Origin: an uncultured Flavobacteriales bacterium
GTDB taxonomy: Bacteria > Bacteroidota > Bacteroidia > Flavobacteriales > BACL11
Length of the DNA: 50,949 nucleotides
Assembly (NCBI GenBank): GCA_905478185.1
Contig: CAJQHO010000004.1
Span: 1 to 50,949 of the forward strand
Reading direction: 5' to 3'
Both the position numbers and the translations under genes were made by a program. This document shows positions 35,406 to 39,081 of this stretch, piece after piece. Numbering within the stretch: position 1 is the stretch's first letter; each line of letters starts with the position of its first letter. The notes under the pieces were generated by a model. That model ran no database searches. It saw only the letters and a list, made by a program, of their open reading frames with translations, and was not told where the DNA came from.

Positions 35406-36092
35406 ATGAGTTTAACTTTTAATATTGCTATTGACGGACATTCCTCTTGTGGCAAAAGCACAATAGCAAAATCTATTGCTCTGAAATATGGCATGCGCTA
35501 TATTGATACGGGAGCAATGTACAGAGCGATCACACTTTATTTTATGAGAAACAATATCATTAAAAATAAACAAGTTGATTTTGCTTTACTCTCAGATTCT
35601 TTAGATAAAATAACTATTAATTTTCAATTCAATTCTGAGCTAAAAAAGTCAGAAACTTTTCTGAATAATGAGAATGTTGAGTCAATTATTAGAGGGTTTG
35701 AGGTTTCCGATAATGTTTCAATTATTGCTCAAATTAAAGAGGTAAGAGAAAAGTTAATTCTTTTGCAAAGAGCAATTGGAAAGTCCAAAAATGTAGTGAT
35801 GGATGGTAGAGATATTGGAACAAAAGTTTTTCCTGACGCAAGGTTAAAGCTTTTTGTTACTGCAAAGGCTAAAATTCGAGCTCAAAGAAGATTTGATGAG
35901 TTGACTGTAAAAGGTGAAAGAGTTACTTTTGATGAGATTTTACAGAATTTGAATGAAAGAGATGATTATGACACTAATAGAGACATCAATCCGCTTATGC
36001 AAGCAGAAGATGCTGTTTTGATTGATAATTCAGCACTTTCTATTCAGGATCAGAATGATTTAATTGATAACTTAATAAATACAAAAAAATAA
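35406..36092 (+). CDS. cmk: Cytidylate kinase
   Basis: This kinase phosphorylates CMP and dCMP to diphosphates. The 228-residue protein has the P-loop GHSSCGKSTIAKSI near residue 11. The family motif DTGAMYRAIT lies around residue 34, and VVMDGRDIGTKVFPDA at about 130-145. It starts directly after porQ and overlaps ispH by one base (TAATG). The porQ-cmk-ispH order suggests a single operon. Confidence 0.96.
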   Translation: MSLTFNIAIDGHSSCGKSTIAKSIALKYGMRYIDTGAMYRAITLYFMRNNIIKNKQVDFALLSDSLDKITINFQFNSELKKSETFLNNENVESIIRGFEVSDNVSIIAQIKEVREKLILLQRAIGKSKNVVMDGRDIGTKVFPDARLKLFVTAKAKIRAQRRFDELTVKGERVTFDEILQNLNERDDYDTNRDINPLMQAEDAVLIDNSALSIQDQNDLIDNLINTKK

Positions 36093-36964
36093 TGAAAGTA
36101 ATTATTGATAAAAATTCAGGATTTTGTTTTGGAGTTGTTTATGCAATTCAAATGGCAGAATCTATTTTAGATGAAGAAGGAGTTTTGTATTGTTTGGGGG
36201 ATATTGTGCATAATAATAAAGAAGTTGATAGGTTAAATGAAAGAGGTTTGAAAATTATAAATCATGAGGACTTAAAAGAATTGAAGGATTGTAAAGTTTT
36301 GATTCGTGCTCATGGAGAGCCGCCTTCTACTTATGCATTATCTTTAAAAAATAACATTCAACTATTGGATGCATCCTGCCCAGTTGTGCTTAAATTGCAA
36401 CATCAAATTAAAGAAGGTTATGAGCAGTTAAAAGAAATTGATGGACAAGTAATTATTTTTGGAAAAGAAGGTCATGCGGAGGTGACTGGACTTGTTGGGC
36501 AGACAAATAGTGAGGCGATTATTGTTACTACTATTGAGGATTTGGAAAAGGTAGATTTTTCTAAGTCGATTTATATTTATTCTCAAACAACTAAGAGTCC
36601 AAAAGCTTACTTTGATATAACAAAAGAGATAGAGAGAAGAGTAAAATTGTCATCAAATCCTGATATTAAATACATAGTTAATGATACTTTGTGTAGGCAA
36701 GTTTCTGGTAGAGAGCCTCAGTTAAAGCAATTTTCTAATGATAATGATGTTATTATTTTTGTAAGTGGAAAGAAAAGTTCAAATGGTAAAATGTTGTATA
36801 AATCTTGCGAGAAAGAGAACCCTAACTCATACTTTATTTCGGATGTAGATGAGTTGAATAGTGAATGGTTTTTTGATGCTAAAACTGTTGGTATTTGTGG
36901 CGCTACTTCTACTCCAAGATGGTTGATGGAAAATATTCAAAAAGCTATCGAAAAAATAGCTTAA
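36092..36964 (+). CDS. ispH: 4-hydroxy-3-methylbut-2-enyl diphosphate reductase
   Basis: IspH is the last enzyme of the non-mevalonate isoprenoid pathway, making IPP and DMAPP with a [4Fe-4S] cluster. The 290-residue protein keeps the three cluster cysteines: Cys12 in SGFCFGVVYA, one in DASCPVV (about residue 95) and one in NDTLCRQVSGREPQL (about residue 203). GKEGHAEVTGLVGQ is also conserved. It ends the porQ-cmk-ispH unit; no strong terminator is seen before the rpsA promoter. Confidence 0.96.
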   Translation: MKVIIDKNSGFCFGVVYAIQMAESILDEEGVLYCLGDIVHNNKEVDRLNERGLKIINHEDLKELKDCKVLIRAHGEPPSTYALSLKNNIQLLDASCPVVLKLQHQIKEGYEQLKEIDGQVIIFGKEGHAEVTGLVGQTNSEAIIVTTIEDLEKVDFSKSIYIYSQTTKSPKAYFDITKEIERRVKLSSNPDIKYIVNDTLCRQVSGREPQLKQFSNDNDVIIFVSGKKSSNGKMLYKSCEKENPNSYFISDVDELNSEWFFDAKTVGICGATSTPRWLMENIQKAIEKIA

Positions 36965-36971
36965 TATTCTT

Positions 36972-37003
36972 TTGTGTTATTTCATATTAAAATTGTATTT
37001 TTG
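36972..37003 (+). promoter_or_regulatory. rpsA promoter (-33 and -7 boxes)
   Basis: TTG at 36972-36974 and TATTTTTG at 36996-37003 are 21 bases apart. Transcription would begin close to 37008, giving an unusually long leader of about 110 bases before the rpsA ATG. Confidence 0.6.
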
Positions 37004-37007
37004 CACG

Positions 37008-37100
37008 CCTTTTCAGAATGTTAGTAAGGTAGTGAAAAGGAAACAATTATAATTAATCGCTCTTAAAGTTTAAAACATCTTAGCCTTACTTACTTTAAGA
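37008..37100 (+). promoter_or_regulatory. Structured 5' leader RNA of rpsA (two hairpins with complementary loops)
   Basis: Hairpin 1 pairs CCTTTTCA (37008-37015) with TGAAAAGG (37033-37040), eight perfect pairs. Hairpin 2 pairs TCTTAAAGT (37061-37069) with ACTTTAAGA (37092-37100), nine perfect pairs. The loops contain AGTAAGG (37023-37029) and CCTTACT (37084-37090), which are fully complementary and could form a kissing interaction. ATCTTA (37077-37082) competes for TAAGAT (37096-37101), so an alternative fold exists. I do not know a described motif of this kind; autoregulation by S1 is the natural hypothesis. Confidence 0.5.
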
Positions 37101-37121
37101 TACAAATGTAAATGACGAAAT

Positions 37122-39047
37122 ATGTCAGAAGAAAAGAAAATAGTAACTGTTAAAAAAGCAGTGAAAAAACCTAGAATTTCTAAGGTTAAAAAAGAAGAAA
37201 CTCCAAAATCTGTGGAGGTAAAAGCAACTGAAACTCCTGTTGTAGAAGAAATAAAATTAGAAGAAACTCCTGTAGTTAAAAAAGAGAAAACTTTATCTAA
37301 AGAAGAATTGCTTGCAAATTTTGATTGGGACAAAGCTGCTCAAAATGACATGTATTCTAATGAAGAAAGAACAGGTCTTGAAAAAGAATATGTTGCTACT
37401 CTTCCTGAGATTATGGACAAGCAAGTTCTTGATGGTACTGTTGTTATGATTACTGAGAGAGAAGTAGTTGTTGACATCAACTTTAAATCAGATGGGGTGC
37501 TTTCTTTTAATGAGTTTAAATATAATGAAGATTTAAAAGTTGGTGATTCTGTTGAAGTTTTAGTAGAAAAGCAAGAAGACAAAAACGGACAATTAGTTTT
37601 ATCACATAAAAGAGCTAGAATTTTAATGGCTTGGGAAAAAGTTAATGTTGCATTAGAGACTGGTGAAGTTGTAAATGGTCAAATTTTGAGCAGAACAAAA
37701 GGTGGTATGATTGTTGATGTATTCGGAATTGAATGTTTCTTACCAGGATCTCAAATTGATGTTAAGCCAATCCGTGATTATGATGCGTATGTTGGTAAAA
37801 AGATGGAATTCAAAGTTGTGAAAGTAAATGAAGCATTCAGGAATGTTGTAGTATCTCATAAAGCATTAATTGAGGCTGATTTAGCAGTTCAAACTAAAGA
37901 GATCATGTCTAAATTAGAAAAAGGACAGGTACTAGAAGGAACTGTTAAAAATATAACTTCTTATGGTGTGTTTGTTGACTTAGGAGGTATTGATGGATTG
38001 GTACATATTACTGATTTATCTTGGGGTAGAATTTCTCATCCAGATGAGATTGTATCTTTAGATGAAAATATAAATGTTGTAATTCTTGACTTTGATGAAG
38101 GTAAGAGTAGAATTCAATTAGGATTAAAACAATTAGGTGCTCATCCTTGGGATAGTTTAGAGGGTGACTTAAAAGTTGGAGATGAGGTTGATGGAAAAGT
38201 TGTAGTTGTTGCTGATTATGGAGTGTTTGTTGAATTACAAGCAGGAATTGAAGCTTTACTACATGTTTCTGAAATGTCATGGTCAACTCACTTAAGATCA
38301 GCTAATGATTTCTATAAAAAAGGTGATGCTGTAAAAGCTCAAATTTTAACTTTAGATAAAGAGACAAGAAAAATGTCATTAGGTGTTAAGCAAATGACTC
38401 CAGATCCTTGGGCTGAAATTGAAGCAAATTTCCCTGTTGGATCTAAGCATAGTGTAAAAGTAAGAAACTTCACAAACTTTGGAATTTTTGTTGAGCTAGT
38501 TGAAGGTGTTGATGGTTTAGTTCATATTTCTGATTTATCTTGGAGCAAGAAAATTAAGCATCCAGCTGAGTTTACTCAAGTTGATTCAATGCTTGATGTT
38601 ATTGTTTTAGATATTGATAAAGCAAATAGAAAAATCAGTTTAGGACATAAGCAGTTAGAAGACAATCCTTGGGATGAATATGCTAAGCAATTTATTGGAG
38701 GTAAAGATTATGAAGCAACTGTAACTGAAGTGCTTGACAAGGGAGCTGTTGTTTCTTTATCAGAAGAAGTTGAGGCTTTTGCTCCAAAAAGACATACTGA
38801 AAAAGAAGATGGTTCATCAATGGTTGTAGGTGAGACTTTATCTGTAAGAGTTCTTGAGTTCTCGAAAGAGAACAAAAAGATTTTAGTTTCTCATACTGCT
38901 ATCTTTAAAGAAGAACTTGAGGGTGAAAGAAAGAAATCAGCTGCTTCTGCTAAGAAAGTAATGAAGAAATTGGAAGATGACAAACAACATTCAACTTTAG
39001 GTGATTTGGATAGTTTGGCTGCTCTGAAGAGAGACTTAGATAATTAA
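37122..39047 (+). CDS. rpsA: 30S ribosomal protein S1
   Basis: S1 binds mRNA on the small subunit. The 641-residue protein has a Lys/Glu/Val-rich N-terminal extension of about 70 residues, then roughly six S1 (OB-fold) repeats. Three are near-canonical: SYGVFVDLGGIDGLVHITD (from about residue 278), DYGVFVELQAG (about 363) and NFGIFVELVEGVDGLVHISD (about 449). The C-terminus is a charged Lys-rich tail. It is a single-gene unit with a long structured leader and a strong terminator. Because mRNA recruitment in Bacteroidota relies little on Shine-Dalgarno pairing, S1 is expected to be important here. Confidence 0.96.
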   Translation: MSEEKKIVTVKKAVKKPRISKVKKEETPKSVEVKATETPVVEEIKLEETPVVKKEKTLSKEELLANFDWDKAAQNDMYSNEERTGLEKEYVATLPEIMDKQVLDGTVVMITEREVVVDINFKSDGVLSFNEFKYNEDLKVGDSVEVLVEKQEDKNGQLVLSHKRARILMAWEKVNVALETGEVVNGQILSRTKGGMIVDVFGIECFLPGSQIDVKPIRDYDAYVGKKMEFKVVKVNEAFRNVVVSHKALIEADLAVQTKEIMSKLEKGQVLEGTVKNITSYGVFVDLGGIDGLVHITDLSWGRISHPDEIVSLDENINVVILDFDEGKSRIQLGLKQLGAHPWDSLEGDLKVGDEVDGKVVVVADYGVFVELQAGIEALLHVSEMSWSTHLRSANDFYKKGDAVKAQILTLDKETRKMSLGVKQMTPDPWAEIEANFPVGSKHSVKVRNFTNFGIFVELVEGVDGLVHISDLSWSKKIKHPAEFTQVDSMLDVIVLDIDKANRKISLGHKQLEDNPWDEYAKQFIGGKDYEATVTEVLDKGAVVSLSEEVEAFAPKRHTEKEDGSSMVVGETLSVRVLEFSKENKKILVSHTAIFKEELEGERKKSAASAKKVMKKLEDDKQHSTLGDLDSLAALKRDLDN

Positions 39048-39052
39048 AATTT

Positions 39053-39081
39053 AAAGCCCCATTAATTTGGGGTTTTTTTTT
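39053..39081 (+). terminator. Terminator of rpsA
   Basis: CCCCA at 39057-39061 pairs with TGGGG at 39068-39072, extended by AAAG/TTTT, and is followed by a run of nine T. The pyrR -7 box begins three bases later. Confidence 0.88.

Follow-up and report, generated by a model that had tools for sequence, protein, structure and literature searches.

A covarying, pseudoknotted leader RNA upstream of rpsA in Flavobacteriales, a candidate target of feedback by ribosomal protein S1

What kind of RNA precedes the rpsA coding sequence in an uncultured Flavobacteriales bacterium, and what might it do there? S1 is the ribosome's main mRNA-binding protein and Bacteroidia mostly initiate without Shine-Dalgarno (SD) pairing, so the way in which the S1 level is set bears on the choice of mRNAs by their ribosomes. 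The question was raised by a window of 50,949 nt (the whole stretch of DNA analysed, one contig of a 1.66 Mb genome), for which an earlier note had described two hairpins with complementary loops in front of rpsA, and had proposed a structured, candidate autoregulatory leader with two exclusive states.

All features are collected in Table 1. Since rpsA has its own Bacteroidota-type promoter and an intrinsic terminator at its end, it is probably transcribed alone, behind a leader of about 110 nt, and the transcript start is predicted at about 37007–37012, approximately the start of the first hairpin (H1). The upstream promoter element was matched to the Bacteroidota promoter consensus, and we take it to be a -33-like element; TTG at a plausible -33 distance was present in only 21 of 46 non-redundant leaders. 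The side-by-side arrangement of cmk, ispH and rpsA (35406–39047) may be an old neighbourhood; cmk–rpsA adjacency is known from E. coli too, and both IspH and S1 of the window match the NCBIfam bifunctional IspH/S1 fusion model (NF000907), below its cut-off. At its N-terminus (window 37122–37300), S1 carries a long extension rich in lysine, which varies in length and is expanded in two relatives (L012, L013) into tandem threonine-lysine repeats.

Table 1. Coordinates of genes, signals and RNA elements at the rpsA locus of the window
Feature	Position	Strand	Basis or remark
cmk	35406–36092		upstream of ispH
ispH	36092–36964		between cmk and rpsA
-33-like promoter element TTTG (presumed)	36971–36974	+	sequence; matched to Bacteroidota promoter consensus
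-7 promoter element TATTTTTG (TAnnTTTG)	36996–37003	+	sequence; also precedes relatives' leaders, which were partly gathered by this very landmark
H1 5' strand CCUUUUCA	37008–37015	+	pairs with 37033–37040; covariation
Helix a 5' strand AUGUU	37018–37022	+	pairs with 37074–37078; partner-specific
Helix b 5' strand AGUAAGGU	37023–37030	+	pairs with 37083–37090; partner-specific, z = -7.8
H1 3' strand UGAAAAGG	37033–37040	+	pairs with 37008–37015; covariation
A/U-rich single-stranded linker	37041–37060	+	unpaired in covarying structure; A/U-rich in all relatives
H2 5' strand UCUUAAAGU	37061–37069	+	pairs with 37092–37100; covariation
Helix a' AACAU	37074–37078	+	pairs with 37018–37022
Helix b' GCCUUACU	37083–37090	+	pairs with 37023–37030
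H2 3' strand ACUUUAAGA	37092–37100	+	pairs with 37061–37069; covariation
Conserved tail UACAAA	37101–37106	+	near-invariant in relatives' alignment A2
rpsA, ribosomal protein S1, 641 aa	37122–39047	+	NCBIfam NF004953, 843 bits, above cut-off
Intrinsic terminator 3' of rpsA	39053–39081	+	9-bp stem, then T run
pyrR-like gene	from 39099		named from translation
pyrB-like gene	from 39644		named from translation

Within the leader, the two perfect hairpins were present exactly as the earlier note had them (H1, CCTTTTCA/TGAAAAGG, 8 bp; H2, TCTTAAAGT/ACTTTAAGA, 9 bp), and so was the 7-bp complementarity of their loops (helix b, AGTAAGG 37023–37029 with CCTTACT 37084–37090; 8 bp with a T37030/G37083 wobble). 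A second loop-loop helix that the note had missed (helix a, ATGTT/AACAT) lies just 5' of b in loop 1, with its partner just 5' of b' in loop 2. H2 is separated from the rpsA start codon by 21 nt, and no terminator was found within the leader. The stacking score of H1, the loop-loop helix and H2 was -37.6 vs -20.1 ± 2.8 in dinucleotide shuffles, and was reached by 0 of 1000 shuffles. The nested-only minimum free energy (MFE) fold of the leader was unremarkable (z = -0.5) because the signal sits in the crossing pairs, and plain MFE folding is therefore unusable for judging this RNA. The two exclusive states had been derived from a 6-bp pairing of ATCTTA (37077–37082) with TAAGAT (37096–37101), which would compete with H2; the pairing does occur in the window, but it was complete in just 2 of the 12 close relatives compared (the window and L002) and lost where the element is intact, and its sequences overlap H2 and a' and are constrained for other reasons. 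As the pairing is not conserved, the two-state idea is unsupported, the competing pairing was rejected, and a switch of this kind has next to no probability.

For comparison, rpsA upstream regions were collected from same-genus through same-phylum genomes, and the architecture was found kept, with changed sequence, in the rpsA leaders of dozens of other genomes. Nearly all Flavobacteriales leaders had a 5' hairpin (often of the CCTTTT...AAAAGG type), then a linker rich in A/U and another hairpin followed by UACAAA between TAnnTTTG and the AUG, at a median of 19 nt from the UACAAA tail to the AUG; since the leaders were partly gathered by the TAnnTTTG and UACAAA landmarks, the frequency of these landmarks is no independent result, whereas the pairing tests are independent. 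Convincing structure was not found in four leaders (L046, L048, L174, L175). Partner specificity was assessed on 46 leaders of less than 80% identity, with 5' halves set against 3' halves in 20,000 partner permutations. The best helix between a leader's own halves averaged -11.0 kcal/mol vs -8.8 kcal/mol with foreign halves (z = -7.8, reached by 0 of 20,000 permutations). Between lineages, helix b was fully replaced (AGUAAGG/CCUUACU in the window, ACAGGCU/AGCCUGU in L015, CAGGAC/GUCCUG in L037, GGUUUGAA/UUCGAACC in L043, GAGUUUCU/AGAAACUC in L040, AUUGGGU/GCCCAAU in L034). Unbiased counts were taken from a MAFFT alignment built without structure, in which both-side changes occurred in 22 of 29 pairs (H1, 4/8; a, 5/5; b, 5/7; H2, 8/9) and double-change cells numbered 120 vs 53.6 ± 6.0 in shuffles; sliding the partners lowered the percentage paired, the number of double-change cells and the covariation score. 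On the model-fitted alignment, covariation was seen in 6 of 8 H1 pairs and both-side changes in 8 of 9 H2 pairs, and 69 matches aligned to the H1 + H2 model, an alignment that leans to structure, gave 246 double-change cells vs 77.8 ± 8.8. The covariation check suggested in the earlier note turned up compensatory changes in H1, in H2 and between the loops, and a structured, loop-loop paired rpsA leader RNA is firmly supported by the comparison of leaders. A/T-rich DNA often contains short inverted repeats, and the element might be taken for chance complementarity or for a protein site at the DNA level; given the shuffle score, the compensatory changes in crossing helices, the many G-U pairs among the leader helices and the wholly different sequences between lineages, this reading is scarcely credible.

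Helix a is 4–7 nt long in the leaders, and its sequence also varies (GCGA/UCGC in L202, GCGC/GCGC in L201, GGUG/CACC in L068, UGUGG/CCACA in L106, GACAGC/GCUGUC in L044, GCGGAU/AUCCGC in L035). With b picked without regard to a, the crossing placement of helix a was partner-specific (z = -7.0, 0 of 20,000 permutations), whereas two antiparallel placements of the second helix had no partner specificity in the same permutation test; one longer antiparallel kissing helix was rejected on these grounds. A control placement (loop 1-3' with loop 2-3') was likewise significant, and this signal is that of the same crossing architecture, since the "b" picked in L030, L035, L039, L044 and L151 is really a. 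The strand order a-b-a'-b', with its two crossing helices, is that of an H-type pseudoknot, and the mutual pairing of the loops of H1 and H2 is that of a kissing-loop complex. The gap between a' and b' was 3–4 nt in 21 of the 30 leaders having helix a, which would fit a loop crossing a helix of 4–5 bp. From the covariation we infer that helices a and b form together. Covariation among the leaders shows H1 and H2 near the 5' end, their loops joined by the crossing helices b and a, as a compact pseudoknotted domain whose end lies about 20 nt 5' of the AUG; its linker and the tail are A/U-rich. This topology (two loops, two crossing helices, drifting sequence) lends itself to testing pseudoknot prediction and what S1 recognises. 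H1 starts approximately at the predicted transcript start, as a stability element shielding the rpsA transcript from 5'-end-dependent decay might, but a plain hairpin would suffice for that, and neither the two conserved crossing helices nor the constant distance to the AUG is explained by a reading that we regard as very improbable.

Specificity was assessed with a family-level covariance model of H1 and H2 only, without crossing pairs, under strict filters. In the genome of the window, the model found a single copy (E = 1.6e-13; next match, E = 6.3), and in 246 order-level genomes it found at most one copy each (E ≤ 0.01). rpsA lay downstream on the same strand in 29 of 29 fetched strong matches with readable context (tblastn), and one more strong match (L234) sits at a contig end. 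The structured leader proposed in the earlier note is therefore upheld by covariation, by an exclusive place upstream of rpsA and by a promoter, and it is the two exclusive states that fall away. Like an r-leader, the element lies in the 5' UTR of an r-protein gene, with the promoter upstream of H1, and has a conserved RNA structure with covariation. Only 65 of the 246 order-level genomes were recovered at E ≤ 0.01, which we read as partly a matter of limited model sensitivity, since leaders of several model-negative genomes (e.g., L040, L143, L151) show the architecture in the helix search. In four assemblies (G013, G019, G050, G042), neither a full-length rpsA nor a convincing leader was found, and only S1 domains of other proteins matched; the G013 assembly comprises 2 contigs and is 99% complete.

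Among the 41 rpsA leaders examined in other Bacteroidia are reduced versions whose loops match (AUAAGGG/CCCUUAU in L097, L098 and L101, CCCUGAA/UUCAGGG in L142, CCGACA/UGUCGG in L152, CCGAUU/AAUCGG in L108; in Bacteroidales, UCGCCU/AGGCGG in L090 and UGCCU/AGGCA in L107), each with p ≤ 0.04 against shuffles when taken singly, uncorrected for the 41 leaders. In several further groups (L153, L155, L157, L163, L166), the rpsA leader is short, has no more than one hairpin and lacks the element, so this control is not essential to the class. In one family (f17; L153, L155, L157), the rpsA leader is about 40 nt long and consists of a small hairpin, AAGGAG or similar, a short A/T-rich stretch and the AUG, which may mean that S1 is controlled in another way in this family.

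Comparison with Rfam 15 (4227 families) gave no family at gathering score for the window leader, and a relaxed search gave only chance-level matches (E > 1). Bacteroidales-1 was considered as the identity of the leader, which had no match to it at gathering score. Across 18 related loci the leader was again unmatched; the sole match was a Flavo-1 RNA (RF01705, 73.3 bits; L040:503–588, genome G053), which precedes the rpsA leader by about 100 nt on the same strand; Flavo-1 is a separate RNA in that locus and was rejected as the leader's identity. Pseudoknots are common in riboswitches, and the leader might be one, or be read by another factor (a different r-protein, a metabolite, temperature), but the loop sequences vary freely, with no conserved pocket except the tail, no Rfam family matches and rpsA is always downstream, which makes this improbable. 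No published description of an S1 leader in Bacteroidota was found among the open-access papers searched, a 2017 survey of 224 motifs not being covered; an S1 leader is absent from the table of a 2020 survey of r-leaders (PMC7247131), and neither rpsA nor protein S1 occurs in the main text of a 2010 survey. We call the element an r-protein leader for a protein whose autoregulation is known elsewhere, with an unrelated and unusual RNA architecture.

With no terminator, and with its distance to the AUG constant at about 20 nt, the leader would act on translation rather than transcription, and since the pairing sequences drift freely, its shape and not its letters would be read. Strong structural but little sequence constraint, one single-gene r-protein transcript, a position near the AUG and the lack of a terminator make an r-protein leader acting on translation the best reading. 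Because the transcript carries a single gene and ends at an intrinsic terminator, S1 is the sole encoded candidate ligand, and we infer both S1 as the ligand and the direction of control. E. coli S1 binds H-type pseudoknots with nanomolar affinity (PMC7708055), S1 of gamma-proteobacteria represses its own translation via an SD-less start region (PMC10931766), and SD pairing is generally unused by Bacteroidia ribosomes (PMC9976891); taken together, these make S1-mediated repression the most economical account, and autoregulation by S1 is plausible by analogy. We consider it probable that the element is a cis-acting r-protein leader RNA through which free S1 represses its own translation. Ribosomes of the class would recruit mRNA largely without SD pairing, relying on S1 and on unstructured A/U-rich leaders. 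With S1 not in excess, 30S-bound S1 would engage the leader and open or anchor the domain, and translation would begin; with S1 in excess, free S1 would bind the pseudoknot and adjoining single strands, filling the entry site where the 30S footprint begins on its upstream side, and initiation would be blocked.

The main rival to S1-mediated repression is a translation enhancer or standby platform, in which the pseudoknot would anchor 30S-bound S1 close to the start codon of a gene with very high expression, with no feedback by free S1. S1 anchors 30S subunits on the tisB mRNA pseudoknot (PMC7708055), and the element's position coincides with the upstream edge of the expected 30S footprint, but other genes with high expression should then carry such an enhancer as well. 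The model finds a single copy in each genome, at rpsA, and we think this role unlikely. Under repression by free S1, the leader is a candidate S1 feedback system independent of, and structurally unlike, that of gamma-proteobacteria, and would, if true, provide a natural pseudoknot target of S1. Whether much of Bacteroidia controls S1 via an undescribed RNA class, with S1 reading shape and free S1 gating its own SD-less mRNA, appears to us evenly balanced.

The gamma-proteobacterial rpsA leader consists of successive hairpins and is not known to contain a loop-loop pseudoknot. The E. coli example shares with the present leader the gene, a structured SD-less start region, A/U-rich single strands and S1 as the expected regulator (PMC10931766), but here two hairpins are joined by loop-loop helices, in another phylum, and no sequence or structural similarity to the gamma-proteobacterial leader was seen. 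The S15/rpsO, S4/alpha operon and L20 leaders likewise place a pseudoknot near an r-protein start codon, with presumed translational feedback; they differ in protein and topology, their pseudoknots lying around the start region, whereas here the two crossing helices link two hairpin loops on its upstream side. R-leaders have been predicted in Bacteroidia/Flavobacteria for S4, L13, S15 and S16, lineage-specific cis-regulatory RNAs of r-protein genes as here, but none for S1 (PMC7247131). The strand order a b a' b' and a context related to S1 are shared by the H-type pseudoknots that E. coli S1 binds (a SELEX ligand, tisB mRNA; PMC7708055), but here each pseudoknot half is enclosed by a hairpin of its own. 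Two hairpins are likewise joined by 6–8 bp between loops in kissing-loop complexes such as RNA I/RNA II, and in two of the reduced versions (L142, L098) the loops are exactly complementary 7-mers; unlike those complexes, the present one is presumably intramolecular, and in Flavobacteriales it is extended by a second, crossing helix.
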